Of a stretch of DNA of 38,127 nucleotides, positions 884-16,747 are shown piece by piece. Both the position numbers and the translations under genes were made by a program. Origin of the DNA: Syntrophobacteraceae bacterium (lineage in GTDB: Bacteria; Desulfobacterota; Syntrophobacteria; Syntrophobacterales; Syntrophobacteraceae). The DNA lies in NCBI GenBank assembly GCA_013314815.1, contig JABUEY010000023.1, positions 1 to 38,127 of the forward strand, written 5' to 3'. Under the pieces are notes generated by a model. That model did no database searches. It saw nothing but the letters and a program-made list of their open reading frames with translations, and had not been told where the DNA came from. Each line of letters starts with the position of its first letter. The first letter of the stretch is position 1.

Positions 884-991
884 CAACAGGCGGATCCGTC
901 GACGGCAGGGCAGTGTCATTTGGGTTCGCCTGTTATCCGGCATCCCCGGGTTTGAATGGATTCCGCTGATAAGCAACCAGGACGGGAAAAG

Positions 992-1270
992 ATGAAATAC
1001 TGGCGTGTTCCTCTGGATATGGAAGAGATCGAGGTATCGAGGGGTATTGTTCACATCGTAGAAGAGCGATGCAAGGGGTGCGGCTACTGCATTGAGTACT
1101 GCCCGAGGGATGTGCTGGAATTCTCCCCGAAGTACAATGCCAGGGGTTACCACCCGCCGCGGGTGAAAAGGCCCGAGGCGTGCGTGAACTGCCATTACTG
1201 TGAAACCATCTGCCCCGACTTTGCGATTTATTCCGTCGAGGCGCCTCCGGATGCAGATCCCGCGGCATAG
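992..1270 (+). CDS. korD: 2-oxoacid:ferredoxin oxidoreductase, delta (ferredoxin) subunit
   Basis: A 92-residue double [4Fe-4S] ferredoxin. Cluster ligands are CxxCxxCxxxCP at residues 27-37 and a second CxxCxxCxxxCP at residues 64-74. Followed by alpha, beta and gamma genes, it fits the delta subunit that carries electrons from the thiamine-diphosphate centre of a 2-oxoglutarate-type oxidoreductase to ferredoxin or, here, perhaps to the Hdr proteins. I chose the ATG at 992 because AGGA lies about 9 nt upstream. An in-frame ATG at 956 would add 12 residues but has no clear ribosome site. First gene of the operon. Confidence 0.85.
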   Translation: MKYWRVPLDMEEIEVSRGIVHIVEERCKGCGYCIEYCPRDVLEFSPKYNARGYHPPRVKRPEACVNCHYCETICPDFAIYSVEAPPDADPAA

Positions 1271-1348
1271 CGGCACATTGAAACCTTTCACCGCGGCCCC
1301 ATATCTAGAGGGGTTCCGGTGAATTCACCTTAACCTGGAAATGTGGAA

Positions 1349-2509
1349 ATGAAACCAGCAGTCTTGACCGGCGAACATTTTATCACGGGAGACGTCGCGT
1401 GTGCCGAGGGGGCTCTTGCTGCCGGGTGCAGGTTTTTTGCGGGCTACCCCATCACTCCGGCCACGGAGATTGCCGAACACATGGCTTCCAGGCTTCCTCA
1501 TGTATGCGGTACATTCATCCAGATGGAGGATGAAATTGCCGCCATGGCGGCGGTCCTCGGTGCATCCAACGCGGGGGTGAAGAGCATGACGGCGACATCG
1601 GGCCCGGGGTTCAGCCTCATCATGGAAAACCTGGGCCTGGGCATATGCACGGAAACCCCGTGCGTGGTGGTGAACGTACAGAGAGCCGGGCCCTCGACCG
1701 GTCTGCCCACCCTGGGTGCCCAGGGGGACATGATGCAGGCACGCTGGGGTTCGCACGGCCACTACGAGATCATCACCCTGGCTCCGTCTTCGCCCCAGGA
1801 ACTTTTCTACCAGACCATCACCGCTTTCAACATGAGTGAGACCTACCGGCTGCCGGTGCTGATCATGACCGACGAGGTCACCGGGCATCTGAGCGAAAGA
1901 GTGGTCATACCCGAGCCCGGTGCCATCCAGCTGCAGACCAGGCCGGTTCCCAAGGGGAGGAAAGACCGGTTCAAACCTTTCCAGCCGGGTCCGAACGGCG
2001 TGGCGCCCATGGGGATCGCGGGCGGAGGCTACGGGCTTCACGTGACCGGCCTCACGCACGACGAACGCGGGTACCCCTGCATGAATCCGGAAACCCAGGC
2101 GGAGATGCTCGACCGATTGACGGGCAAGATCCGCAGGAATCTCAAAGACATCCTGCTCACCGAAAGCTACAGGCTCGACGACGCCGACATCGCGCTGGTG
2201 TCCTACGGAGTCTCGTCGCGCAGCAGCCTGGCGGCAGTGGATGAAGCGAGGCAGGCGGGAATCAAGGCGGGGCTCCTTCGCCTCATCACCGTGTGGCCCT
2301 TTCCGGAGGAGCGGATACGCGAACTGTCCAGGAAGGTGAAATGCCTGGTTACGGTCGAGATCAACCTGGGCCAGATACATCTCGAAGTTCAACGATGTTC
2401 GGAAGGAAGAATCCCCGTCTGCCTGGTCGGCCACGCCGGCGGTACGGTGATCTCGCCGGACACCATTGTCGACAGGCTCAAGGGACTTCTCCAGTCTCTT
2501 CACGCGTAG
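1349..2509 (+). CDS. korA: 2-oxoglutarate-type ferredoxin oxidoreductase, alpha subunit
   Basis: Carries the pyrimidine-binding half-domain of 2-oxoacid:ferredoxin oxidoreductases. The N-terminal GYPITPATEIAEHMA segment is the family hallmark of the KorA group; QMEDEIAAMAAVLGASNAG and TATSGPGFSLI follow, and the C-terminal transketolase-like domain ends near VTVEINLGQIHLEV. At 386 residues the length is normal. With KorB it would oxidatively decarboxylate a 2-oxoacid to an acyl-CoA, or run in the reductive direction. The exact substrate cannot be read from sequence; 2-oxoglutarate is the usual assignment. An in-frame GTG at 1343 is an alternative start. A perfect 12-bp palindrome, GGTGAATTCACC (1318-1329), sits just upstream. 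Confidence 0.88.
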   Translation: MKPAVLTGEHFITGDVACAEGALAAGCRFFAGYPITPATEIAEHMASRLPHVCGTFIQMEDEIAAMAAVLGASNAGVKSMTATSGPGFSLIMENLGLGICTETPCVVVNVQRAGPSTGLPTLGAQGDMMQARWGSHGHYEIITLAPSSPQELFYQTITAFNMSETYRLPVLIMTDEVTGHLSERVVIPEPGAIQLQTRPVPKGRKDRFKPFQPGPNGVAPMGIAGGGYGLHVTGLTHDERGYPCMNPETQAEMLDRLTGKIRRNLKDILLTESYRLDDADIALVSYGVSSRSSLAAVDEARQAGIKAGLLRLITVWPFPEERIRELSRKVKCLVTVEINLGQIHLEVQRCSEGRIPVCLVGHAGGTVISPDTIVDRLKGLLQSLHA

Positions 2510-2657: not shown

Positions 2658-3488
2658 ATGGAAAAAACGAGGACCCGGTCGGAACACCCTTTGAACGACC
2701 TGCTGCGCACGGACCGCATTCCCCACATCTGGTGCCCCGGCTGCGGTATCGGCACGGCGTTTTCGTCCTGCCTGGTAGCCGTCAAGGCCGCCGGGCTGGA
2801 CCTCAGAAAAACCGTCATGGTTTCGGGAATCGGCTGTTCCGGCCGTGGAGCCGGCTACACCAAGCTCGATTCCTATCACACCACGCATGGGAGAGCCATC
2901 CCTTTTGCAACGGGCATGAAGCTTGCCAACCCGGAACTCAACGTCGTGGTCTTCAGTGGAGACGGAGACCTCTTCGCCATCGGGGGGAACCACTTCATCC
3001 ACGCAGCCAGGCGAAACGTGGATCTCACCGTCGTATGCGTGAACAACCTCAACTACGGCATGACGGGCGGCCAGGCTGCCGCCACTACTCCCAGCATGGC
3101 GAAGACCACCACCACTCCTCTCGGCAACCCGGAACCCCCCTTCAATCTTCCGCTCCTCGCTTTCGCGGCGGGGGCGACCTACGTCGCGAGATGGACCATC
3201 CTGCATACGCGCGACCTGACCAAGTCCATCGAGGAAGCCCTGACGAGACGGGGTTTCTCCTTCGTCGAGGTTCTTGCTCCCTGCCCCACCGGGTATGGGA
3301 GGCGAAACAGGGAAAAGCCCCTCGATTCACTCAAGATCTACCAGGAACGCACCATCACCAGGAACGGAGCGAACCCCGCCGAGGTGACTCTGGATTTCCA
3401 TCGAGGAATCACACTCGGCAAATTCGTCGACCTGGAAAGGCCAACCTTCCTTGACGCTTACGAAAAGGTCTGCAGCCTCACTCAGTGA
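2658..3488 (+). CDS. korB: 2-oxoglutarate-type ferredoxin oxidoreductase, beta (TPP-binding) subunit
   Basis: A 276-residue thiamine-diphosphate subunit. The WCPGCG motif (Cys26 and Cys29) and a further Cys in GIGCSGRG are the usual ligands of the [4Fe-4S] cluster near TPP. The TPP/Mg motif follows as GDGDLFAIGGNH ... NNLNYGMTGGQ at about residues 100-140. The C-terminal APCPTGYGRRN segment is also typical. AGGAG lies 7 nt before the ATG. It is separated from korA by 148 bp without a gene, in the same direction. Family known; substrate inferred. Confidence 0.9.
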   Translation: MEKTRTRSEHPLNDLLRTDRIPHIWCPGCGIGTAFSSCLVAVKAAGLDLRKTVMVSGIGCSGRGAGYTKLDSYHTTHGRAIPFATGMKLANPELNVVVFSGDGDLFAIGGNHFIHAARRNVDLTVVCVNNLNYGMTGGQAAATTPSMAKTTTTPLGNPEPPFNLPLLAFAAGATYVARWTILHTRDLTKSIEEALTRRGFSFVEVLAPCPTGYGRRNREKPLDSLKIYQERTITRNGANPAEVTLDFHRGITLGKFVDLERPTFLDAYEKVCSLTQ

Positions 3489-3538: not shown

Positions 3539-4141
3539 ATGAACCGGAAAACCGAACCAGCTTCTCCGAAGGAAATTCTCATTACGGGATTCGGAGGCCA
3601 GGGCATTGTGCTTGCCGGCCAGATAGTGGGCAAGGCGGCAAGCCTTCTGGACAAGAAAGAAAGTACTCTGACCCAGTCCTACGGTCCGGAGGCCAGGGGA
3701 GGCGCCTGCAGTGCCCAGGTCATCATTTCCGACCGGACGATCCATTATCCTTACGTGAGGCGTCCCGACATCCTGGTCTGCATGTCCCAGGGAGGCTATG
3801 ACAGATTCGCGGACACCCTCAAAGGTGACGGCACCCTGATTATCGACCAGGACCTGGTGCAGCCCGCGGCGGCAAGAGGTAGCGGCTTTTTCGCCATCCC
3901 CGCCACGCGGATCGCCGAAGAACTGGGAAGGAGAATGATGGCCAACATTGTCATACTCGGCTTTTTCACTTCCGTGACGGAGGCCGTTACTGCGGACGCC
4001 ATGCGCCGCACGGTATCTGAATCCGTTCCGAGAGGGACCGGAGAAGCGAACATCGGGGCATTCAACAAGGGATACGAATTCGGCCTCGCCACTCTGAAGG
4101 GACGTCAGAAGAAGGCCGAGGGAAAGAAGGGAGTCAGGTGA
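3539..4141 (+). CDS. korC: 2-oxoacid:ferredoxin oxidoreductase, gamma subunit
   Basis: A 200-residue protein of the gamma/catalytic domain family of 2-oxoacid oxidoreductases. The glycine-rich GFGGQGIVLAGQIVGKAA near residue 18 and the SYGPEARGGACSAQVIIS segment are diagnostic. This domain completes the alpha-beta-gamma-delta set. Its TGA stop shares one base with the ATG of the next gene (4141), so translation of the Hdr-type protein is probably coupled to korC. That is good evidence that both act in one complex or pathway. Confidence 0.88.
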   Translation: MNRKTEPASPKEILITGFGGQGIVLAGQIVGKAASLLDKKESTLTQSYGPEARGGACSAQVIISDRTIHYPYVRRPDILVCMSQGGYDRFADTLKGDGTLIIDQDLVQPAAARGSGFFAIPATRIAEELGRRMMANIVILGFFTSVTEAVTADAMRRTVSESVPRGTGEANIGAFNKGYEFGLATLKGRQKKAEGKKGVR

Positions 4142-7100
4142 TGCGAACTCCCAAGGATAGGCTTCACAGGGTCCTGGTAATCGGCGCGAATCCGGCCGGG
4201 CTTGCGGCGACAAACAAATTGGGAGAAATGGGCATTCCGGTGACACTCATGGACCGCGACCCGGATCTCAATGAAAAACTCGCCTCCGAACAATGGCGAC
4301 TTTCCTCGGGCCTGACCCTCAACTACGCTCAACGGCCCGGTCTTCTCCGCATACTGAGAAACCCCAGGATTCGTTGCCTCATACCCGGTGAAGTTGTGTC
4401 CCTCAAGCACACTCCCCAGGGCTTTTGCGCCAGGTACAGGACCACTGCCACTTACGTGGATCCCGACCGCTGCATCCTCTGCGGCCGGTGTGCCGACGTG
4501 TGCCCGTCTGTCGGGCCCGACGGATCACGGCCCATCCGGTTTAACGGCAGGCAGAGTCTGCCCGGGCGCCCCGTCATCGACAAACGCCGGCAGCCTCTCT
4601 GCCAGGAAAGCTGCCCGTTGGGAGTCAACGCGCAGGGGTATATCGCTTTGGCAAGAGCAGGCCTGTATGACGAGGCTCTCGATCTCATCCGGAAAGACAA
4701 CATTTTGCCCGGCATCTGCGGCCGGATATGCACTCACCCGTGCGAAGAAGCCTGCAGGCGGGGCACCCTCGACGAACCCGTCGCCATAAGAGACATCAAG
4801 CGCTTCCTTGCCGATCGCCAACGGACGGAATCGGCGGAAAATCCAACTTCTGTTGTCTTCAGATCCGAGAAGGTGGCCGTTATCGGATCCGGCCCGGCGG
4901 GACTTGCCGCCGCTGCGGATCTTGCCCGGTTCGGTTACCCGGTGACGGTATTCGAGAAGGAAGAAAAGGCGGGCGGCATGCTCCGGTACGGCATCGGTCC
5001 CTGGCGCCTGCCCAGGGATGTACTCGACCACGAGATCCATTATATCGAAAGGCTCGGAGTTGAATTCAGAACGGGGTGTTCCATCGATCTGACGGACGGC
5101 ATCCGGGAACTGAGAAAGGAGTTTTCTTCGGTAATCCTGGCCACGGGCACCTGGAAAGACAGGAGACTCGGTGTACCCGGGGAAGACCTCGATGGTGTCC
5201 AGGGCTGTCTGTCTTTTCTCGAAAAGCTATACAAAGGGGAAGTCGGCAGCACGGAGGAGCGAATCGCCGTGGTCGGTGACGGAAACGCAGCATTCGACGT
5301 CGCCCGTGCGTGCGTGCGTCTTGGAGCCCGGGTGACCGTTCTTTCCTGGTTCCCGGAGGAACTCATCCCCGCTGATCCGGCGGAGGTCGTTGCGGCTCGC
5401 GAGGAAGGCATAGGGATCACGGACAGCCTGAAGGTTGTGGAGTTCATCGGGCAGGACGGAAGACTTGCTGCACTGCGCTGCGCCGCCACCAAACCGGGTG
5501 AACCCGACGCCAGGGGCATTCCCTGGCCGGTGATCATCCCGGGCGGACCCATAAGGGAACTTCCCTTCGACAGGGCCATCGTTGCCATCGGTCAAAAGGG
5601 AGACTCTTCGCTTTGCCACCCGAAGAGCGGAATCTCTTTCACTCCCGCAGGCCATATTCAAGTCGACGCAGGGTGCAGAACCGGTGTGGACGGGGTTTTC
5701 GCCGCCGGGGACGCCGCAACCGGCCCGTCGTCGGTGGTGAGGGCCATGGCATCGGGCAGGCATGCGGCCCGGGCTGTTCATGCAACACTGAGCGGAGAAG
5801 CATTGCCTGACCCGATAACGCACAGGCCCTTTGACAGGGACTTCCCTGAAATCACCACCGATCTGCCGTCACTTGCCCGGGCGGACATGCCTGAACGGCA
5901 GCCTGCCGCAAGAAAGGAAGGTTTTGCGGAAGTGGCTCTCGGACTCAGTGAAACGCAGGTTTCTTCCGAAGCGGGCCGCTGCCTGCAGTGCGGAGTCTGC
6001 GCCGAATGCCTGCAGTGCGCCGGGGTCTGTGTTTCTCCCGGAACGATCCGGCACGACGAAATGCCGGCCGAGGGAGTCGAACATGCGGGAGTGGTGATCA
6101 TCGCCGACCCCGATTCGGCGCCTTCCGTAAAAGGGGAGGACGTACTGAGGGCCTACAGCACCAGGTCGTCGAAGGACGACGTCTACGCGATGATGCTTCG
6201 CGGCTTCGCGGCCGCCGCTGAGGCCATGATCCTGCTTGGCGGCACATCTCAGCGCATGAAAGGCCACGGCCTTTCCTTCTCCCCGCCGGGCCCGCAGCTC
6301 TCCAGTGAACTGCGCATCGGCGTATTCGTCTGCCGGTGTAACAATTCGCTCGGCTGGATCGAGAAACTCGACCGTTACGTGGAAGGACTCACGAATCTCA
6401 AGGATGTCGAACACACGGAAGTGACCGCATCGGCCTGTTCGCCCGAGGGTTCGGCATCCATTCTTCGGACCATTCGCGAAAAAGGACTCTCTCGCATCGT
6501 ACTCGCCTCCTGCGTGTGCTGTCCGCTGGACTTTATCTGCAGCGCCTGCACGGACCAGAGAAGCCGCCTGAAGGACGCCCTGTTCCATGGAACGGGAGTC
6601 AGCCGGGCCATGGCGGAAACCTGCAACGTACGAGGCGAAGTGCTTCGGCTGCTTGAAGAAGACCCCGAACTCGCCTGCAGGAGATTCACCGGCCTGATCG
6701 AACGGTCCATAGGCCGTGCCCGCAAGCTGAAGGCGCTCCCCGCGCCGGCTCGGCCCTACAATTTCACCACGGCGGTCATCGGTGATTCCGAGGCGGCGAT
6801 GAAGAGCGCGCTCACACTGGCCGAGACCGGCATGGAGGTCTTTCTGTTCGGGGCTCCCGAGCGGCCCCTGTCCGAGCCGGTGGATCACCCGAACATCCAT
6901 TCCTTCAACGGCTCCCTTGTGAAGGGACTCCGCGGCACCGTGGGCAACTTCCAGGTGATAGCCGACATCAGCGGCTTTCAGCAGGTGTTCCAGGTGGGAG
7001 CCGTGATCCTCGGTGACTCTTCCAGAAAGCAGATCCCTTACCTGCCCATGGAGGACCTGTCTCACCACAAGCTGCAGGCGTCCATGCAGCGGCGCGGCGT

Positions 7101-7497
7101 TACGGGGATACCTTTCTTCAGTCCCGGAGCCACCTCCATACCGGGACTTTTCCTGGCAAGTCCTGGAGGCATCCGGGTATCGGAAAGAATCAAGGGTACA
7201 GCGGCAGCGATTCTGGCCGCGTCGGTTATGCCCAGAAGTCCGCGGCAGAACAAGGGTTACACGGTGGTTGTGGACGAAAGCCACTGCCGGGGCTGCGGAC
7301 GGTGTGTCGAGGTCTGTCCTTACCAGGCCGTCAACTACAGGAAGAACGACATCGGCGGCTGGTACGCCGTGGTGGACGAGGCCCTGTGCAAGGGGTGTGG
7401 CAGCTGCATCGCCGTCTGCCCCACCAATGCCGCCGACAGCCCGTACCGCGACCGCAGGTATCTCGAACAGATGATCGAAGAAATAATGTGCCGATGA
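4141..7497 (+). CDS. HdrA-like iron-sulfur flavoprotein with inserted GltD-like module
   Basis: 1118 residues, multi-domain. (1) Residues about 10-100: FAD Rossmann region, GANPAG. (2) About 106-122: CxxCxxCxxxCP cluster motif. (3) About 153-230: GltD-type N-terminal Fe-S domain (CQESCP, CGRICTHPCEEACRRG). (4) About 245-553: NAD(P)H/FAD oxidoreductase core of GltD type (GSGPAGLAAAADLARFGYPV, GDGNAAFDVARA, FAAGDAATGPSSV). (5) About 615-640: Cys-rich linker. (6) About 725-870: HdrA N-terminal-like domain (GVFVCRCNNSLGW) with a second Rossmann region after it. (7) About 1045-1100: two [4Fe-4S] motifs. A likely role is passing electrons between pyridine nucleotide, flavin, ferredoxin and the partner Hdr subunits; this is inferred. 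GTG at 4138 is a possible start one codon earlier. Confidence 0.75.
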   Translation: MRTPKDRLHRVLVIGANPAGLAATNKLGEMGIPVTLMDRDPDLNEKLASEQWRLSSGLTLNYAQRPGLLRILRNPRIRCLIPGEVVSLKHTPQGFCARYRTTATYVDPDRCILCGRCADVCPSVGPDGSRPIRFNGRQSLPGRPVIDKRRQPLCQESCPLGVNAQGYIALARAGLYDEALDLIRKDNILPGICGRICTHPCEEACRRGTLDEPVAIRDIKRFLADRQRTESAENPTSVVFRSEKVAVIGSGPAGLAAAADLARFGYPVTVFEKEEKAGGMLRYGIGPWRLPRDVLDHEIHYIERLGVEFRTGCSIDLTDGIRELRKEFSSVILATGTWKDRRLGVPGEDLDGVQGCLSFLEKLYKGEVGSTEERIAVVGDGNAAFDVARACVRLGARVTVLSWFPEELIPADPAEVVAAREEGIGITDSLKVVEFIGQDGRLAALRCAATKPGEPDARGIPWPVIIPGGPIRELPFDRAIVAIGQKGDSSLCHPKSGISFTPAGHIQVDAGCRTGVDGVFAAGDAATGPSSVVRAMASGRHAARAVHATLSGEALPDPITHRPFDRDFPEITTDLPSLARADMPERQPAARKEGFAEVALGLSETQVSSEAGRCLQCGVCAECLQCAGVCVSPGTIRHDEMPAEGVEHAGVVIIADPDSAPSVKGEDVLRAYSTRSSKDDVYAMMLRGFAAAAEAMILLGGTSQRMKGHGLSFSPPGPQLSSELRIGVFVCRCNNSLGWIEKLDRYVEGLTNLKDVEHTEVTASACSPEGSASILRTIREKGLSRIVLASCVCCPLDFICSACTDQRSRLKDALFHGTGVSRAMAETCNVRGEVLRLLEEDPELACRRFTGLIERSIGRARKLKALPAPARPYNFTTAVIGDSEAAMKSALTLAETGMEVFLFGAPERPLSEPVDHPNIHSFNGSLVKGLRGTVGNFQVIADISGFQQVFQVGAVILGDSSRKQIPYLPMEDLSHHKLQASMQRRGVTGIPFFSPGATSIPGLFLASPGGIRVSERIKGTAAAILAASVMPRSPRQNKGYTVVVDESHCRGCGRCVEVCPYQAVNYRKNDIGGWYAVVDEALCKGCGSCIAVCPTNAADSPYRDRRYLEQMIEEIMCR

Positions 7498-7517: not shown

Positions 7518-9101
7518 ATGAATGATTTAAAGATCGTATTGTTTATCTGCAACTGGGGACCTCACGCCGCGTTCCAGATGCTTCAGGACAGCTGCCGGCA
7601 TATGCCTCACCAGGTCAGGATGATACGCATTCCCTGCAGCGGCCGCATGAGCAGGGCGCTGCTGTTCAAGGCGTTCGAAACGGGCGCCGACGGTGTGGCT
7701 CTCGTGGGCTGCGAACCCGGTTCCTGCAGGTACGGAAGCGGCACGGGCATCGCGGAACGCAACGTCCAGGATACCCGCGGCATACTCGAACTGCTCGGAC
7801 TCGGAAAGGACCGCCTGCGCCTGGCCACCTTCCTCCCCGAACAGTCCGAGGCCCTGCTCGAATTCCTCCAGCAGTTCCATGCGGATGTGGAAAGAATGGG
7901 GAAAAGCCCCGTTATACCCGTCCCCAAGACGCAGCCGGGGGAATCGGGAAGGGACCTGGCCGCCCGTATCCTCACCTCCCATGACATTTATGCGTGCCAG
8001 GACTGCGGGAAGTGCTCCTCCGCCTGCCCCATGAGCCTCTGTGGAAAGCCCTTTTCTCCCCGGGCCATGGCGGGTTCCATTATCGGAGGCAACATCGGTT
8101 CGGCGTCGGTGGTCAGCGACGTATGGTCCTGCCTCACCTGCGGGATCTGCTACGACCGTTGTCCTTCGGCCGTGGATTTCCCCAGGTTCATCCGGGATAT
8201 GCGCCAGGTTCACCGCAGGGCGGGAACGGCGGGGCAGGAGGCCCATGAAGGCTTCTTCCAGGCACTCATGCGCACCATGACTTCACCCGACCTCGACATC
8301 AGGCACTGGGACTGGCTTCCCGAAGACATCCAGGTGGACGGGCAGAGCAAAACGCTCTTCTTCGGAGGCTGTGCGCCTTATTTCGATACCTTCTTCGGCC
8401 GCACGCTCGGAGTCAAAACCTGTGACATACTCATCGACAGTCTTCGTCTCTTGAACTTCTTCGATATCTTTCCGGCCCTGCTTCCGGGTGAAAGATGCTG
8501 CGGCCACGACCTGTTGTGGACCGGAGACAGGGATAGTTTCATCCGGCTTGCACGCCTGAACGTGGACGCCATCGAGGAGCGCGGGATCGAGGAGGTCGTC
8601 ACGTCTTGTCCCGAGTGTTATCGTACTCTTGCCATCGACTACCCTGAACACGGAATTCCCATAAGCTTCAAGGTGACCCACATTTTCGATCTCGCAGAAA
8701 AAGAGATCGACAAGGGTGCCATCGGGTTCGAGAAACTGAACCGCACGCTGACCTTCCAGGACCCATGCCGCCTGGCCAGGCTCGGCGGACCGGGCGAGCT
8801 TCCGCGAAAGCTCATCAGCCGACTCAAACCGAGGGGATTCGAGGAAATGAGGGACCGGGGCAACTCGGCACTGTGCTGCGGCAACTGCGCCTGGACCGGG
8901 TGCGACAGCTACACCAAGGCCCTCCAGGTGAAACGGCTCCGCCAGGCCAGGGAAACGGGAAGCAACCTCCTGGTCACGGCCTGCCCCAAGTGCCAGATCC
9001 ACCTGCGGTGCGCCATGGAAGACCCGTTTCTGGGAGACGAAATCAGGATGGAGATGATGGATCTCACGTCCATCGTAGCCAGGACTATCAGATGGGAATA
9101 G
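7518..9101 (+). CDS. MvhD-HdrC-HdrB fusion (hydrogenase delta/Hdr Fe-S protein)
   Basis: 527 residues in three modules. Residues 1-130 resemble MvhD/FlpD, the [2Fe-2S] electron entry subunit of Hdr complexes (CNW, IPCSGR, GCEPGSC). Residues about 155-235 are HdrC-like with two [4Fe-4S] motifs (CQDCGKCSSACP, CLTCGICYDRCP). The rest is HdrB-like with two CCG repeats: C-X41-CC-X35-CPEC, then C-X35-CC-X34-CPKC, as needed for non-cubane [4Fe-4S] clusters. HdrB reduces disulfides in methanogens; the substrate here is unknown. The CNWC motif of MvhD reads CNWG here, so one usual ligand is missing. It lies 20 bp after the HdrA-like gene and 12 bp before the HdrA selenoprotein. Confidence 0.8.
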   Translation: MNDLKIVLFICNWGPHAAFQMLQDSCRHMPHQVRMIRIPCSGRMSRALLFKAFETGADGVALVGCEPGSCRYGSGTGIAERNVQDTRGILELLGLGKDRLRLATFLPEQSEALLEFLQQFHADVERMGKSPVIPVPKTQPGESGRDLAARILTSHDIYACQDCGKCSSACPMSLCGKPFSPRAMAGSIIGGNIGSASVVSDVWSCLTCGICYDRCPSAVDFPRFIRDMRQVHRRAGTAGQEAHEGFFQALMRTMTSPDLDIRHWDWLPEDIQVDGQSKTLFFGGCAPYFDTFFGRTLGVKTCDILIDSLRLLNFFDIFPALLPGERCCGHDLLWTGDRDSFIRLARLNVDAIEERGIEEVVTSCPECYRTLAIDYPEHGIPISFKVTHIFDLAEKEIDKGAIGFEKLNRTLTFQDPCRLARLGGPGELPRKLISRLKPRGFEEMRDRGNSALCCGNCAWTGCDSYTKALQVKRLRQARETGSNLLVTACPKCQIHLRCAMEDPFLGDEIRMEMMDLTSIVARTIRWE

Positions 9102-9113
9102 GGAGCAGGGACT

Positions 9114-11564
9114 TTGATCGTGGAAAAGCAGGAAAACAGGACAACCGGCCGCCGTGTCGGCGTATACGTCTGCCACTGCGGGCTGAATATCGCCAGGACC
9201 GTCGACTGCAGGAAGGTCGCCGAGGCCGTCGCGGAAATGGAAGATGTCGCCGTGGCGAGGGACATCCCCTACGCCTGTTCCGAACCGGGGCAGCACAGCA
9301 TTAAGGAAGACATCGCCGAACACCGGCTCGACCGGATCGTCGTGGCATCCTGTTCGCCGAGGCTTCATGAACCGACGTTTCGCCAGATGGTGCAGTCGGC
9401 GGGGCTCAACCCGTACCTCCTCGAGATGGCGAACCTCAGGGAGCACTGCAGCTGGGTGCATATGAACGAGCCGGAGGAAGCGACCCGCAAGGCTGTCGAC
9501 CTGACCAGAATGGCCGTGGCCCGCGTGCGCAACCTGGTGCCTCTCGAACCGGAGGTTCTTCCTCTTACGAAGAGGACCCTGGTCATCGGCGGGGGCGTGG
9601 CAGGCATCCAGGCGGCCCTGGACCTGGCAGACAACGGCTACGACGTCGTCCTGGTGGAAAAAAAGCCTTCCGTCGGCGGAACAATGGCCAAGCTCGACAA
9701 GACGTTCCCGACCATGGACTGCTCCATCTGAATACTCGGTCCGAAAATGACGGATGTCGGTCGACATCCCCGAATCAAGCTGCTCACTCTGAGTGAAGTC
9801 GTGGACGTAAAGGGCTACGTGGGCAACTTCGACGTGAAGATACTCAAGAAGTCCCGGTACGTGTCAGAGAACGAATGCACGGCCTGCGGCGAATGCGCCA
9901 AGGTCTGCCCGGTGGTGCGTCCCGATGAATTCAATTTCGGACTGTCTTCGCGCAAGGCCATCTATTCACCCTTTCCCCAGGCTGTTCCTTCAGCCTACGT
10001 GATCAATGTGAACGAGTGCCTCGGCCATAATCCCGTCGTGTGCGCCAAGTGCGTGGAGGTCTGCGACAAGGGCTGCATCAACTTCCACATGTCGGATGAG
10101 GAGATCACGGAGCGGGTGGGGACTATCGTTGTGGCAACCGGGATGGAGCCGTACGACCCGACGGAACTCGATGAATACGGTTATACGCGGTTCGAGAACG
10201 TGCTGACGAGTCTCGAATTCGAGCGGCTGGTCAATGCAGGCGGCCCGACCCGCGGCAGGCTGGTGAGGCCCACCGATCGACGGACTCCCGGATCCATCGG
10301 CTTCATCCAGTGCGTCGGGTCGCGTTCCGCCAGGAAGGGTGCCTCTTACTGCTCCAACGTCTGCTGCATGAATACCGTGAAGAGCACTCTCGTGCTGAAG
10401 GAACACTACCCGGACATGGACGTCAAGGTCTTCTACATCGATATTCGTGCCTTCGGCAAAGGATTCGAAGATCTTTACACGAGAAGCAGGCGTCTGGGAG
10501 TGAAATATATCCGTGGGCTGCCGGGAACGGTGGAAGAACGCGCCGATGCGGGCTTGAGGGTGGCCGTGGAAAACAGCGCCACGAACTCCATCGAATTCCA
10601 CGATCTGGACATGCTGGTCCTGGCCGTGGGAGTCAAACCATCCGCCGCCACGCAGAGACTCCAGGAAATGCTCGGCCTGCAGCTCACACCCGACGGCTTC
10701 TTTCTCGAAGCGCATCCCAAGCTGCAGCCGGTGGACGCGGCCACACGCGGCATTTTTTATGCCGGGTGCGCCGAGGGGCCCAAGGACATCAAGGACAGCG
10801 TGACGCAGGCTTCCGCGGCGGCGGCAAGGGCCATACGGCTGATGCACAGGGGGGAGATCCTCACGGAGCCGATCACTTCCGAGGTGATCGCGGAGCATTG
10901 CAGGGCATGCGGCAAGTGCGCGGAAGTCTGCCCCTACAACGCCATTACGGTGGATACGAAGAAGAAAACCCCGGCCGTCGTGAATACCGCCGCCTGTGCG
11001 GGCTGCGGCACCTGTGCCGCCGAATGTCCGTTCGGGGCCATCACGATGAACCATTTCACCGATGTTCAGATCCTCGACCAGATCGATACTTTGCTCGAAG
11101 AAGACCCTCAGGACAAGATCCTGGCCTTCGCGTGCAACTGGTGCTCCTACGCCGGCGCCGACTATGCCGGTGTCTCCCGGCTTCAGTACCCGCCCAATGT
11201 TCGGCTCATCCGCACCATGTGCTCCGGACGGGTGGACGAATCCTTCATCCGGCACGGGTTCGCCCGGCGGGCTCCCATCATTCTCGTCAGCGGATGTCAC
11301 ATCGGCGACTGCCACTACATCCATGCCAACCACTGGACGGAGAAGCGGGTGGCCAGGTTCCGCAAGAAGATGGAAAAGCTCGGCATCCGCCCGGAAAGAC
11401 TGCAGCTCGAATGGATCAGCGCCGCCGAGGGGACCCGTTTTTCATCGATCATGCACAGACTGGAGGAATTGAGGAAAGAAGTCAGCCTGGAGGAAATCGA
11501 GGAAACCGTCAGGATTCTTGAAAATGGAGCCGGGGTTCGCAGGGACTCGCCAGGATCGGAATAA
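9114..11564 (+). CDS. hdrA: HdrA-MvhD fusion, selenocysteine-containing (TGA at 9729-9731 read as Sec)
   Basis: Two reading frames, 9114-9731 and 9732-11564, are in the same phase and are separated only by one TGA. Read through, they give an 816-residue HdrA: N-terminal domain (GVYVCHCGLNIA), FAD fold (GGGVAGIQAALDLA, about residue 159), the motif TMDCSI-U-ILGPKM with Sec at residue 206, an inserted ferredoxin region (CTACGECAKVCP), two C-terminal [4Fe-4S] motifs (about 594-640), and an MvhD domain from about 663 with intact CNWC, CSGR and GCHIGDC. HdrA proteins have Cys where the TGA lies, and Sec-HdrA is known in methanogens. HdrA is the flavin bifurcation subunit. The start is TTG 9114 or GTG 9120. 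Confidence 0.88.
9732..9773 (+). promoter_or_regulatory. SECIS-like hairpin for selenocysteine insertion in hdrA
   Basis: GGATGTC (9752-9758) pairs perfectly with GACATCC (9763-9769) around the loop GGTC (9759-9762). A lower stem, TCGG (9736-9739) with CCGA (9770-9773), extends it after a 5'-side bulge. The loop begins 27 nt after the TGA. Bacterial SECIS elements lie in the coding sequence just after the UGA and present a small apical loop with G residues; GGUC also occurs in the E. coli fdhF loop. Folding was done by eye. Confidence 0.65.
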
Positions 11565-11574
11565 ACGCCCGGCA

Positions 11575-13902
11575 TCAGGTTCCGACGGCGTCTTCTCCGG
11601 CATGGGCGAAATATCCCATCCCTTTCTGTTCCCGTTCGTTCTGAAGAATGTGGAGCAGTCGGCCGCCGGTGTTTGACGGCACGTGCAGCACATGCACCAC
11701 GGCGGTGTACTGCCCCAGGTCGGGAGCAAGGGAGACAAGGAGGTTCGGGGCATCCAGCAGAAATCTCTCGTTGAAGGCGTTTTCCCTGTCGTCGGGGTAG
11801 ATGGCTACAGGAATGATCCCAGTTTCGAGCAAATCATTGAAGAAGTGGGTGCCGCATGAGACCTCGGGAGTCAGCCCCTGCTCCTCGAACGCAATTTCCG
11901 CAAGAGCCAGGCACCGATTGATGTCCTGGTAGCCGACTCTTACTCCGAGGTTGATGTCGTTGCTTCCCCAGCGGCCGGGACCGAACAGGACAAACCGCCT
12001 GTCCTGGAGCGCCCTGTTCATTCGACTCACGACCCGCCCGACGGCCGTCTTCTCCTCGTATTCCCTTATCCTTCCATATGCTCTCGGATCCACGTATACC
12101 ACGTATTCAATGTCGGGGATGACGGCGTTGAACAGGCACAGGTTGTTTCTGAAAAGGATCCTGTCGGCAGGGACGTCCCGGGGCAGCACAACGCCGGCCG
12201 TCTCGCGCACGGGCAGCGAACGGCACTGGAGGAGGTACAGCCTGTTTTCGTCCCAGGCGAATTCGACGTCCACCGGGTTTCCGTAGGCTTGTTCGAGCTT
12301 GCGCAGGATCTTTTTCATGAGCGGGACAATCGGCGTCTTTGTCAGAAAGTTCTCGAAGGTAATGCAACTCCGCCGCAGATCGATTTTCATCCCTTTGAAC
12401 AGCGGTGCGGAAACAAATCCGTCCTCGTCCACGGACACCGCGTAAAAGAGATCCGGGTGATCGATCTTGTGAAGGAGTTCCATGGAGGCTGCCGTCTCCA
12501 CGCTGTTGGTCGAGAGGTTCAGGACATCGATCATCTTCTGGGAGTATTTCATGATCTGCCTGGCCTCGATTTGCGGGCGGAGAAGAGGGTTCCCGAGAGG
12601 GACCATTCTCGGGTAGTCGCCGCCCACCCGGTCCACGGCCCGGGTGCCCAGACCCATCACGATTCGCAGGAGTCCGTCTTCTTTCCTGATGCGTGGAGTC
12701 CAGGCGAAGGGATTGCGGGAAAAGGCCACTCCTGCGGCAAAGGGGAAGAAATAGTCGCCGAATCGCCGCCCGATCACCTTCTGCACCAGGACACCCATCT
12801 GTTCGTCGAAGTCGAGAAGGCTGTGATCCCGCCTGTAAAGGATGGGAGCCGGCCCGAAGGTGCTCATGTGCACCCGTTTCAAACCCCACATGAATTCTTC
12901 CAGCCTTGTTTCCAAGCTCCCCTGGTTGGCCAGGAAGATGGAATCGTACTTGCCCGAGAAGGAATGGCCGAAATTGTCTTCGAGCAGGCTCGAGGACCTG
13001 AGAATGATCGGGTGCTCCCCCAGTCTTTCCAGAAACGCCCTGAAGTCGTTCACGCTGTCGGGAGGAAAGGAAGCCTTCCTGAAGAGTTCGGCGATGTTGC
13101 GATATTCCGCTTCGATGCTTTCCCGCGTCTTGTACTTCTGGCTGCGGAAGTAGTGCAGTCCGTTGTAGTCGATGAAATCCGAAAAGATGCCGGAACTGAA
13201 ATAGTACGATTCCGGCAGCCGAACGTACTCCTCCAGGTCCGGCTCCCGATCCTGGAGCCTGGGAAGGATGATCTTGGCGGCAAGCAGCATTCCGGCCGCC
13301 TTGCCTCCGATTTTGCCGGGCCTGCGGCGGTTGAGGTAGACGTGGTCGAGCATCTCGTCGATGTCTCGGATAGTGAGGTGCTGCTTGGCAATTCCGATAA
13401 AAGGCAGCTGGTTTGATATGAAGCGGTCGATGAGGGCCACTCGAACCCCCTCCGCTTCGCTGGGGGAGATATAGAGGTCCCCCTGAGGTATGTTGCAGAA
13501 ATCCCTCAAAGCCCGTATGACTCGCCCGGGCTGGATTCTTTCCTCGTTGACGACCCTGTGCAGCTCTCTGAACCGATCCCGTTTGCGTGCCAGGTTGATG
13601 TGCGCCTCGATCTCGTCCGTCGTAAAGTGAACGGCGAAGAGCAAGTCCACCAGGGCTTCTTTCAGGATCTTCCTGTCTTCAGGCGACTCGTGCCCCGACT
13701 GCTCACCGAGAAACTCGACCACCTTCCTCTCGATTTCCTCCTCGCCGGCTATCCCTTTCTTTTCGAGAGCCGCAATGAATATCCCGCGCATCTCGTCGAC
13801 AAGATGCGGGTACTGCATCATTTTTCGATGCATTAAATAGGTGCGGACCAGATCCGGCAATACCCGCCGGACAGTCTGATCTTCTTTATGGGAATCGGTC
13901 AT
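11575..13902 (-). CDS. PEP/pyruvate-binding (PPDK_N) domain protein
   Basis: 775 residues. The centre has the ATP-grasp-like nucleotide-binding domain of PEP synthase and pyruvate phosphate dikinase: GKIGGKAAGMLLA, then PIILRSSSLLEDNFGHSFSG, and FAAGVAFSRNPFAW. I see neither the mobile phosphohistidine domain nor the PEP-utilising TIM barrel, so it is not a full PpsA or PPDK. The C-terminal half (FVLFGPGRWGSNDINLGVRV) is unfamiliar. Function unknown; possibly a phosphotransferase or regulator. I took the ATG at 13902 because AGGAGG lies about 10 nt upstream; the frame is open to 14118 but that part has no family character. It lies 97 bp after glnE and converges on hdrA with a 10-bp gap. Confidence 0.7.
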   Translation of the reverse strand: MTDSHKEDQTVRRVLPDLVRTYLMHRKMMQYPHLVDEMRGIFIAALEKKGIAGEEEIERKVVEFLGEQSGHESPEDRKILKEALVDLLFAVHFTTDEIEAHINLARKRDRFRELHRVVNEERIQPGRVIRALRDFCNIPQGDLYISPSEAEGVRVALIDRFISNQLPFIGIAKQHLTIRDIDEMLDHVYLNRRRPGKIGGKAAGMLLAAKIILPRLQDREPDLEEYVRLPESYYFSSGIFSDFIDYNGLHYFRSQKYKTRESIEAEYRNIAELFRKASFPPDSVNDFRAFLERLGEHPIILRSSSLLEDNFGHSFSGKYDSIFLANQGSLETRLEEFMWGLKRVHMSTFGPAPILYRRDHSLLDFDEQMGVLVQKVIGRRFGDYFFPFAAGVAFSRNPFAWTPRIRKEDGLLRIVMGLGTRAVDRVGGDYPRMVPLGNPLLRPQIEARQIMKYSQKMIDVLNLSTNSVETAASMELLHKIDHPDLFYAVSVDEDGFVSAPLFKGMKIDLRRSCITFENFLTKTPIVPLMKKILRKLEQAYGNPVDVEFAWDENRLYLLQCRSLPVRETAGVVLPRDVPADRILFRNNLCLFNAVIPDIEYVVYVDPRAYGRIREYEEKTAVGRVVSRMNRALQDRRFVLFGPGRWGSNDINLGVRVGYQDINRCLALAEIAFEEQGLTPEVSCGTHFFNDLLETGIIPVAIYPDDRENAFNERFLLDAPNLLVSLAPDLGQYTAVVHVLHVPSNTGGRLLHILQNEREQKGMGYFAHAGEDAVGT

Positions 13903-13999
13903 GGCCTGCGCAGCCTCCTGTGTTGAGCCATACCAAGATTCAGACGCGGTCGGCAGGAAGAACCGGTGTTCATTGCGCCGGTCTGCCGTGTGCGCGTTG

Positions 14000-16747
14000 T
14001 CAGATTTCGGGGCAGAAATGCTGCAGCGAAGACCGTACGACTCTGCGCAGACGCAGAATGTCTTCCCAGCTCTCGATGGAGCCGCCTTCCCGAGCGGGAG
14101 GCCAGAGGCGGAAGGCAACCATGGATTCGAAGAGGCCGGGAGAAAGCCGGGCGGAGCTGTGATTCACGTGGAGCCGCAGCCGGTGGTCCAGGGACCTCAG
14201 CGCATCGTAGGCGGCCTGGACTCCGCGGACCTGCCCCTGCAGTTCAGGCAGATGCTTCAATGCGGCGGGCAGCGCGATTCGTACGGATCCCTTCTGGAGA
14301 TCCGGGTCCATGTGCCCCAGGATCAACTGGATCCCCTGGACAAGAAACTCGACGTCCGCAAGGCCCCCGACTCCCAGCTTAAGGTCTATCATGTCCCCTC
14401 TTTCGTCGCTGCGCTCCCGCTGCATTCGGCCTCTCAGGTGGCAGAGCCTCTGCCGGACATCCTCCGAATTCCTTTCACAATAACAGATTTCAAAAGCCTT
14501 CGCTTCGATCCACCTGCCGAGATCTTCGTCCCCGGCAACATGCCTGACCCGGAGCAGGGCCTGCACTTCCCACAGGTCCGCCCGGCCCGTGAAGTACTCC
14601 ATCCAGGCGCCTCGAGTGACGATCAGAGGTCCGTACGTCCCGGTGGGTCTCAGGCGTGCATCCACTGCGTAACCCGGCCCTTCATGGAGCGGAGTACTCA
14701 GCATGCGCATGAATCTCTGGACGAACCGGACGACTTCCCCCGGAATCTGTTCTTCAGACTCTCCCCTGCCCGGCTGATATACGAAAACCAGGTCCAGATC
14801 CGAGAGATAGCTCATCTCCCTGCTCCCAAGCTTTCCGAGAGCAAGGACCGAGAGGGGAAGGTTCTTCCCGAGGCCCAGGCTGTCTCTTATACGATCATAG
14901 GTCATGCGAAGGACGAAATCGGCAAGAAAGGTGAGCTCCCCTTCTATCTTCTCGTACGGAAACTCCCCTTTCAGATCGCTGAGCACAAGCTGGAGGAGCC
15001 TCTCATTTTTCAGGCGGCGTATCCATTCGAGTCCCTCCTCATAACTCTTCACCTTCCTGAGCAGGCGGGTGCTCGCCGCCTCCCACGACTGTGAATCGCC
15101 AAGTACACCGCCGGCGGTGGCGATCCCTTCGACCAGGCCGGGATGATGCCCGAGCAGATCCGCCACGAGCTCGCTTCGGCACAGTGCCCTGCATACATCC
15201 TGTACCCAGGGGGACGAGGACCGGAACACCCTCATGAGGCCAGGCCGCTTGGTGACCTTGCCGAAGTACCTCTCCAGGCGAAGCAGGATCCTTTCGGCAA
15301 GCTCCCCGTCCTCGAGACGCGAGAAACTCTCCAGGGACTCCCTCACCACCTGCCTGAGAGAAGGTGGATAACGCTCCAGGCATTCCTGGAGCCGAATCAG
15401 GGTCTGAGGAGGATAATTCCTCAGTGGGTCTTCGTCTTTTACCGCTTCCGATTCACCGCTGCGCCCCGCCGTCTTCGAGCTCGACTCTTCAGATTCGAAG
15501 AGGGCAAGAAAGTGCTTGTGCACGGTGCCGCAGCAGTCTTTCAGCCTCTCCTGGAAGGCCTGCTCGTCGCCGTCAAAACCAAGAGCCCTGCAGAGGCGTC
15601 TCCTGGCTTCTTCCGACTGTGGAAGCTTCTGTGTCTGCCGGTTCTGGTCCAGCTGAATCCAGTGCTCGACGCGCCTGAGAAACACGTAGGATTCCTTGAG
15701 TTCAGCAACCACATCCGCTGAAAGCAGGTTCAAATCCCGCAGCCGGTCCAGGCAGCGAAGCGTATTGGGCTCATCCAACTCCGGCATGCGTCCGCCGTAG
15801 ATCAACTGCAGCGACTGGACAAGAAACTCGATCTCCCGGATTCCTCCTATTCCCAGCTTGACATCGAACTTCTGCCGGTCAAGACTCAGCCGACGGCCCT
15901 CGGCAATGATCCTGTCCCTCATGGACCGAAGTTCATCAAGGGCCTGAAAATCCAGGAAGCGCCTGAAAACAAAGGGGCGAACATCCTGGACGAAGGCGGC
16001 ACCCGGAGAGCGCGCACCTGCAACGGGGCGTGCTTTCAGGAGCATCTGCCGCTCCCAGGCATGCCCGTGAAGCAGGTAATGATCGGCGGCGGCGGCAAGA
16101 GAGGTGATCACGGGACCGTCCTTTCCCTGAGGTCTCAGGCGGAGATCCACTTCAAAAACCCGGTCGCCGTTCACCCGGTCCGCCAGGAGACGTGTGAGAA
16201 AATGGCAGAGGCGGCTGAGGAGGTTTAAAGCCTCAGGGGAACGATAGGCTTCTTCCTTTTTGGGCGAGTGGATGAATATGAGGTCCACATCGGAAACGAA
16301 GTTCAGTTCCTGGCCTCCGAGCTTGCCGAGCCCCAGCACGGTGATATCGAACTCCCTGGAAACGGTGGACCAGGGGCCGCCTTCCCCCTCTCCGACCCAC
16401 CAGTGCGGGTGGAGAGAGAGCGCCTCGAGGCCCGCCTGCAGAGCCACGCATGCCAAGTCGCTCAACTGGGAAGTCGTTTCGACCAGGTCGGCCAGCCCGA
16501 GCCGGTCTCTGCCCGCAATCCTCAGGAAATGCCGTTGCTTGAATTCCCTGTAGGCAACGAGAAGATCTCCGAACGACCGAACCGGGCTCACACATTGTTG
16601 AAGATCCCGGTAGAGTTCGGTCAGCGGATAGCGACGATAGAGATTCTTTCGGTCCTGGAGCCATTCAACATATGGAGGCCGGTTACGAAGCAGTGTGGCC
16701 AGATAGTTCGATGACGAGCCGATCAGTTCGATTTCCGTATTGCCCAT
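14000..16747 (-). CDS. glnE: Glutamine synthetase adenylyltransferase/deadenylyltransferase
   Basis: Bifunctional enzyme that adds AMP to, and removes it from, glutamine synthetase in response to nitrogen status. Both nucleotidyltransferase domains are present: GKLGGQELNFVSDVD near residue 134 (adenylyl-removing half) and GKLGSREMSYLSDLD near residue 635 (adenylylating half). Each is followed by an R-L-R-P motif and a helical GIGGIREIEFLVQ or GVGGLADVEFLVQ segment. With the ATG at 16747 the protein has 915 residues, close to the usual size; GGGAG lies 12 nt upstream. A GTG at 16810 would add 21 residues but has no ribosome site. Divergent from kdsB. Confidence 0.92.
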   Translation of the reverse strand: MGNTEIELIGSSSNYLATLLRNRPPYVEWLQDRKNLYRRYPLTELYRDLQQCVSPVRSFGDLLVAYREFKQRHFLRIAGRDRLGLADLVETTSQLSDLACVALQAGLEALSLHPHWWVGEGEGGPWSTVSREFDITVLGLGKLGGQELNFVSDVDLIFIHSPKKEEAYRSPEALNLLSRLCHFLTRLLADRVNGDRVFEVDLRLRPQGKDGPVITSLAAAADHYLLHGHAWERQMLLKARPVAGARSPGAAFVQDVRPFVFRRFLDFQALDELRSMRDRIIAEGRRLSLDRQKFDVKLGIGGIREIEFLVQSLQLIYGGRMPELDEPNTLRCLDRLRDLNLLSADVVAELKESYVFLRRVEHWIQLDQNRQTQKLPQSEEARRRLCRALGFDGDEQAFQERLKDCCGTVHKHFLALFESEESSSKTAGRSGESEAVKDEDPLRNYPPQTLIRLQECLERYPPSLRQVVRESLESFSRLEDGELAERILLRLERYFGKVTKRPGLMRVFRSSSPWVQDVCRALCRSELVADLLGHHPGLVEGIATAGGVLGDSQSWEAASTRLLRKVKSYEEGLEWIRRLKNERLLQLVLSDLKGEFPYEKIEGELTFLADFVLRMTYDRIRDSLGLGKNLPLSVLALGKLGSREMSYLSDLDLVFVYQPGRGESEEQIPGEVVRFVQRFMRMLSTPLHEGPGYAVDARLRPTGTYGPLIVTRGAWMEYFTGRADLWEVQALLRVRHVAGDEDLGRWIEAKAFEICYCERNSEDVRQRLCHLRGRMQRERSDERGDMIDLKLGVGGLADVEFLVQGIQLILGHMDPDLQKGSVRIALPAALKHLPELQGQVRGVQAAYDALRSLDHRLRLHVNHSSARLSPGLFESMVAFRLWPPAREGGSIESWEDILRLRRVVRSSLQHFCPEI

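Follow-up and report, generated by a model that had tools for sequence, protein, structure and literature searches.

How anaerobes deliver low-potential electrons from NAD(P)H to 2-oxoacid synthases is usually answered with free ferredoxin. A stretch of 38,127 nucleotides from a Syntrophobacteraceae bacterium (assembly GCA_013314815.1, contig JABUEY010000023.1, positions 1 to 38,127; hereafter the window) carries a seven-gene operon, korD-korA-korB-korC-Q-mvhD/hdrCB-hdrA2, that suggests a hard-wired route. The fifth gene product, Q, joins a GltD-type flavin/nucleotide module to parts of the heterodisulfide reductase (Hdr) protein HdrA, and the question is what such a protein does beside a 2-oxoacid oxidoreductase. 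Judged from its motifs and gene neighbourhood, Q on balance probably lets NAD(P)H electrons into a complex of the 2-oxoacid oxidoreductase with Hdr proteins and acts as an Fe-S scaffold there, without bifurcating electrons itself. It would be a reduced relative of the HdrL-type proteins, which combine two HdrA copies with GltD, and its own HdrA flavin sites were lost.

The Q reading frame starts at ATG 4141 or GTG 4138 and stops at 7497. ATG 4141 overlaps the korC stop codon and has AAGGGAG upstream. Residue numbers are counted from GTG 4138 throughout. The gene and its parts are as follows.

4141-7497 (+): Q gene, degenerate HdrA-GltD-HdrA protein of 1118 residues
4168-4437 (+): HdrA copy 1, remnant of the flavin adenine dinucleotide (FAD) Rossmann domain, residues 11-100; GATPAG/GANPAG replaces GGGxAG, no Cys194/Cys197 equivalents
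4450-4512 (+): HdrA inserted ferredoxin domain, first cluster motif, residues 105-125; C112, C115, C118, C122
4591-4830 (+): GltD Fe-S domain Fer4_20, residues 152-231; K221 at nt 4798-4800
4870-5757 (+): GltD flavin/nucleotide core, residues 245-540; GSGPAG, R290, GDGN[AS]A, SWF (nt 5344-5352), GD
5980-6030 (+): six invariant cysteines, residues 615-631; permuted GltD RCLQC segment and HdrA inserted-ferredoxin remnant
6289-6747 (+): HdrA copy 2, N-terminal Fe-S domain, residues 718-870; extra CVCCPLDFICSAC motif
6763-7227 (+): HdrA copy 2, degenerate FAD domain, residues 876-1030; fold without GxGxxG, NAD-like domain deleted
7264-7437 (+): HdrA C-terminal 2x[4Fe-4S] ferredoxin domain, two Fer4, residues 1043-1098

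A sequence-only reading of the window had described two HdrA-like regions flanking a complete GltD-type module with its own Fe-S domain at 4141-7497. Pfam, NCBIfam and profile alignment all agreed with this. Pfam placed Fer4_20 at residues 152-231, Pyr_redox_2 at 245-540 and Fer4 at 105-125 and 1043-1098. In NCBIfam, PRK12771 matched residues 148-640 with 465 bits (under the cut-off of 516) and several separate stretches matched HdrA2 (NF040770). By profile alignment residues 1-152 corresponded to HdrA 116-302 (probability 99.4%) and residues 718-1119 to HdrA 6-663 (probability 99.9%), of which a large internal part is deleted. Two halves of one interrupted HdrA were ruled out, as both pieces cover HdrA 152-255; on the alignments, the HdrA parts are remnants of two copies. 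The GltD/NfnB insertion falls within the HdrA inserted ferredoxin domain, and the N-terminal Fe-S domain and C-terminal 2x[4Fe-4S] domain of HdrA are both present.

All 26 same-family genomes searched carry an ortholog with the same architecture and 52-73% identity. Five of these orthologs come from draft assemblies in which the gene is split or truncated; the split in L026 is located where the draft sequence reads X. In the relatives set, three of the eight f2 genomes carried an ortholog and no f3 genome did. Across the phylum, 29 of 395 genomes from about ten families were positive, and named carriers include an uncultured Desulfobacteraceae metagenome-assembled genome (MAG), Desulfatitalea sp. 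UBA4791 and Syntrophobacterales Delta_01. Because the same architecture recurs across genomes, Q is neither a chance product nor an assembly artefact. A deletion-broken gene was also ruled out by the open frame, the level of identity and invariant cysteines in dozens of genomes.

The two HdrA copies were compared by alignment with relatives of ~1475-1510 residues composed of HdrA, an inserted GltD and a second HdrA (L021, L023-L025). The segment bearing the bifurcation lysine K409, at FAD N5, is deleted from both copies of Q. The NAD-like domain, which carries K409, is missing from both. Copy 1 also has no N-terminal Fe-S domain, as in these relatives; copy 2 has retained that domain, together with the C-terminal ferredoxin. 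The FAD glycines of copy 1 read GATPAG, GANPAG or near variants (GANPAA in one case), with GxGxxG gone in every covered ortholog; those of copy 2 read G-x-S-x-x-x in every covered ortholog. The Cys197 equivalent is lost. Cysteines of the inserted ferredoxin, GltD, linker and C-terminal ferredoxin are invariant among orthologs wherever covered, and those of the copy 2 N-terminal domain nearly so, C829 varying in three. A model of the C-terminal part (predicted local distance difference test score, pLDDT, 76) shows, over ~140 residues, the fold of the HdrA FAD domain (Z 16.2, root-mean-square deviation (rmsd) 2.5 Å to 7bke_A), so that the cofactor motif and partner domain, not the fold, appear to have been lost. 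The HdrA-like flanks of the sequence-only reading are present as degenerate remnants, which from these motifs most likely bind no bifurcating FAD.

An extra cysteine motif, CVCCPLDFICSAC, lies at residues 792-804 (nt 6511-6549) within the HdrA N-terminal domain. It is conserved in Q orthologs and absent from ordinary HdrA; a similar CRCCGLDQICFSC occurs in the Chloroflexota locus L045 described below. These cysteines may bind an additional or altered cluster.

The GltD module is complete, with Fer4_20, the FAD GxGxxG, the nucleotide GxGxxA and the C-terminal GD. FAD and nucleotide glycines are invariant in 38/38 Q sequences; the GSGP[AS]G FAD motif, GD and R290 are likewise invariant, and the nucleotide motif GDGN[AS]A is intact. 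Structural comparison of the modelled module returned NfnABC, StnC and NfnI as best fold matches. VIA-align superposed it on 9bov_A with Z 40.9 and rmsd 2.8 Å over 457 residues, and on NADP(H)-bound NfnI (5jca) with Z 34.4 and rmsd 2.3 Å over 401 residues. Motifs and modelled fold are consistent with NAD(P) binding, and the direct pyridine-nucleotide port put forward in the sequence-only reading is their best explanation, with the qualification that the arginines expected for the NADP phosphate are gone. In NfnB the extra phosphate of NADP is held by two arginines (PMC6405883), which would be those of the YRR motif. S-W-F stands at the YRR position in 38/38 Q orthologs and was found in no other sampled GltD; closer GltD relatives outside the family have mostly YRR and some CLES. 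Replacement of the two arginines by W-F in all Q orthologs bears on NADPH preference and not on membership of the fold. At the ligand position of the proximal [4Fe-4S] cluster, 38/38 orthologs have K221, equivalent to Lys170 of StnC, versus Glu in NfnB. The GltD FAD of StnC, with Lys170, was shown to be non-bifurcating, NADPH electrons being passed to a separate bifurcating module (PMC10482914). By analogy we infer that the GltD module of Q is a one-pathway nucleotide port, with NADH likelier than NADPH. In a GltD tree the Q family formed one clade (100/100, 12 rows) outside the 42-row set with most HdrA-inserted and other GltDs; the deep forks are weak and neither support nor reject one origin of the insertion.

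The other genes of the operon are as follows.

956-1270 (+): korD-like 2x[4Fe-4S] ferredoxin, 104 residues; Pfam Fer4/Fer4_7, NCBIfam OGOR_delta 63 bits, below cut-off
1343-2509 (+): korA, 2-oxoacid:acceptor oxidoreductase alpha subunit; POR_N, PRK08659 556 bits, passing the cut-off of 411
2658-3488 (+): korB, thiamine pyrophosphate (TPP)-binding beta subunit; TPP_enzyme_C, best NCBIfam match 2-oxoglutarate ferredoxin oxidoreductase beta, 231 bits, below cut-off
3539-4141 (+): korC, gamma subunit; POR (PF01558), PRK08537 211 bits, below the cut-off of 235; stop overlaps the Q start
7518-9101 (+): mvhD-hdrC-hdrB fusion, one protein; FlpD, Fer4_8, 2x CCG
9114-11564 (+): hdrA2, full HdrA-MvhD; NF040770 1212 bits, passing the cut-off of 1100; in-frame TGA at 9729-9731

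Alpha, beta and gamma subunits and the ferredoxin of KorABCD are all present beside Q. In Desulfobacterota, all ortholog loci share the order kor(D)ABC-Q-mvhD/hdrCB(-hdrA2) over the readable part of their flanks. The kor profiles favour 2-oxoglutarate, with only PRK08659 (general 2-oxoacid) over its cut-off; the substrate of KorABC is probably 2-oxoglutarate. Across 37 loci, the CCG cysteines of HdrB are conserved in all the sequence that could be read. The TGA of hdrA2, read as selenocysteine, lies exactly at the Cys197 position, a residue which in HdrA is the trans ligand of the partner's N-terminal cluster (PMC9012536). TGA was present in 11 of 12 compared HdrA2 sequences, with Cys in the twelfth, and selB is present in the genome. 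E370 and K423 of hdrA2, equivalent to E356 and K409, are conserved. The genome also encodes dsrA (above cut-off) with a weaker adjacent match, presumably dsrB. No ATP citrate lyase or other reductive tricarboxylic acid (rTCA) cycle gene was seen within the window. Convergent with the operon, at 11578-14118 (-), is an 847-residue protein with a PPDK_N (phosphoenolpyruvate-synthase type ATP-binding) domain.

The same gene order was found in two MAGs of other phyla. In the Chloroflexota MAG L045 (4537-14980) the Q slot is occupied by a divergent version of 1186 residues and 30% identity, followed by separate mvhD and hdrCB. In the Krumholzibacteriota MAG L062 (2766-11696) the slot holds an 823-residue protein of GltD, HdrA C-terminal ferredoxin and MvhD, without HdrA flavin parts. 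Because only these elements are kept in L062, the retained core appears to be the route from nucleotide to MvhD. In all three versions the MvhD domain directly follows the C-terminal ferredoxin; in methanogens the contact between the HdrA C-terminal ferredoxin and MvhD is the entry of hydrogenase electrons into HdrA (PMC9012536). The Q operon shows which HdrA parts are dispensable once a GltD port is present.

We infer a physical complex through which electrons would pass as follows. NAD(P)H, probably NADH, would give hydride to the GltD FAD of Q. Electrons would then leave singly through the GltD clusters to the HdrA-type clusters of Q and cross the C-terminal ferredoxin/MvhD contact to the FAD of the neighbouring selenocysteine-containing HdrA2. 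There they would be split, one branch running to HdrCB and a high-potential disulfide-like acceptor and the other through the HdrA2 inserted ferredoxin and KorD to the TPP enzyme KorABC. Running reductively, the complex would use NAD(P)H to fix CO2 onto an acyl-CoA, the product probably being 2-oxoglutarate from succinyl-CoA; in reverse, electrons from 2-oxoacid and thiol would be confurcated onto NAD(P)+. A more elaborate version is tentative and rather unlikely as a whole: an NADH-driven bifurcating 2-oxoacid carboxylase in one complex, with HdrA2 electrons going to KorABC and a disulfide as second acceptor, the HdrA copies of Q serving as a flavin-free scaffold that breaks HdrA dimer symmetry, and the N-terminal cluster of Q ligated in trans by the HdrA2 selenocysteine.

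Several observations weigh against a non-bifurcating NADH port in such a complex. SWF together with GDG might reflect a loss of nucleotide binding. The Q-slot proteins of L045 and L062 carry the canonical YRR, so a preference for NADH would not be common to the whole operon type. E667 of Q may align with HdrA E356 in copy 1 (uncertain), the E356 segment being absent from copy 2. The full-length AlphaFold2 model is mediocre (pLDDT 69, predicted template modelling score 0.46), so domain packing and cluster distances cannot be judged from it. A short locus elsewhere in the genome (L113, contig C10) holds a second korAB pair, of general 2-oxoacid type, so 2-oxoglutarate need not be the substrate. 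Finally, conserved R290 corresponds to the NfnB arginine contacting FAD N5, and the GltD FAD might itself bifurcate, as in NfnB, giving a complex with two bifurcation points such as Chadwick et al. proposed for archaeal HdrA-NfnB fusions (PMC9012536). This is improbable, since every ortholog has the lysine of non-bifurcating StnC and not the Glu of NfnB, the operon has no NfnA-type partner and a full bifurcation-competent HdrA2 adjoins Q. Just as improbable is a GltD module that no longer uses NAD(P)H and acts as an Fe-S relay or scaffold, or takes another hydride carrier, with SWF closing or remodelling the pocket. SWF is indeed invariant and unique to the family, and the phosphate-binding arginines are gone, but the module has kept its fold along with GxGxxA and the two FAD motifs, strict invariance points to a working site, and L045 and L062 have the canonical YRR in the same slot.

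Taken literally, the sequence-only reading would make Q a type III HdrA in which the HdrA FAD is active and bifurcating and GltD is the port. For type III, too, the insertion is described at this point of the inserted ferredoxin domain, and E667 may match E356, but GxGxxG is lost in both copies of every ortholog, the NAD-like domain with K409 is deleted, Cys197 is lost, and K409 and E356 are kept throughout the published type III sequences (PMC12054007), which leaves this very unlikely. The 2-oxoacid oxidoreductase and Hdr proteins might instead be co-regulated and linked only by diffusible ferredoxin, as KorD could be an ordinary delta-subunit ferredoxin; gene order identical across families and three phyla, the korC-Q translational overlap and a similar korABCD/flx-hdr interleaving in Gammaproteobacteria that was read as a complex (PMC6315080) make this a little less probable again than a bifurcating GltD. 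In Q, the two disarmed HdrA copies are better seen as the base of a port, which would serve the 2-oxoacid oxidoreductase and a separate HdrA2. The port hypothesis can be tested directly through the SWF motif, K221 and the three natural versions (Desulfobacterota, Chloroflexota, Krumholzibacteriota); SWF is also a marker of the Q family in genome data.

The architecture of Q cannot be called new to science. The sequence-only reading had suggested that it may be uncharacterised biochemically, and no biochemistry was found in the open-access literature; the basic architecture had already been named at the level of genome annotation, as HdrL in 2009, HdrA9-11 in 2022 and type III HdrA in 2025. HdrL, a 'heterodisulfide reductase/glutamate synthase fusion' with a predicted NADH site and mvhD next to it, was named in 2009 (PMC2702500) and the name reused in 2025 (PMC12142623). 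HdrL1-3 of Desulfobacterium autotrophicum HRM2 (PMC2702500) are, like Q, HdrA/glutamate-synthase fusions followed by mvhD, and FlpD opens the gene product after Q, matching the MvhD that follows HdrL. Q was compared with HdrL by published description only; HdrL1 and HdrL3 contain selenocysteine, and the described HdrL contexts are dsrABC or formate dehydrogenase, whereas that of Q is kor. The likely HdrL-like relatives (~1475-1510 residues, e.g. L021, L023-L025) retain K409, Cys197 and YRR, all three of which Q has lost.

Double-HdrA proteins with an inserted GltD are widespread, in Desulfobacterota, Smithella, Chloroflexota, Armatimonadota and Clostridia (L021 in the same genome, contig C53, 7086-11636; L023, L024, L025, L039-L044, L046-L050, L052 and L065). 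They combine the published HdrA types II and III. K409 in copy 1, Cys197 and YRR were kept in the four examined in detail (L021, L023-L025).

Archaeal HdrA9-11 with an NfnB insertion were described in 2022 (PMC9012536) and archaeal type III HdrA in 2025, in a paper which states that types II and III are without any biochemistry (PMC12054007). These proteins of ANME-1 and Bathyarchaeota have, like Q, GltD inside the HdrA inserted ferredoxin domain; they keep K409/E356, whereas Q lost its HdrA flavin sites and has a further HdrA copy, also degenerate. Another parallel is offered by StnC of Sporomusa ovata and NfnABC (8oh5, 9bov, 9n5u): StnC has a GltD domain with a Lys ligand, which feeds a separate bifurcating module much as proposed for Q, but StnC is a GltD-NuoG protein that binds NADPH and Q a GltD-HdrA protein with SWF replacing YRR. 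Tubeworm symbionts and Thioflavicoccus have rTCA clusters in which flxABCD-hdrABC is interleaved with korABCD, and for the symbionts this arrangement was proposed to encode a complex feeding 2-oxoglutarate synthase (PMC6315080, PMC11636981). Those clusters and the Q operon alike would encode a putative complex of Hdr with 2-oxoglutarate:ferredoxin oxidoreductase, NADH entering through FlxAB there and through GltD in the Q operon. No paper describing a kor-HdrA/GltD-hdr operon or a flavin-less HdrA variant was found in the open-access literature. What the locus adds to the HdrL, HdrA9-11 and type III HdrA papers is the conserved kor-Q-hdr operon, the disarmed HdrA copies and the SWF/Lys GltD site.

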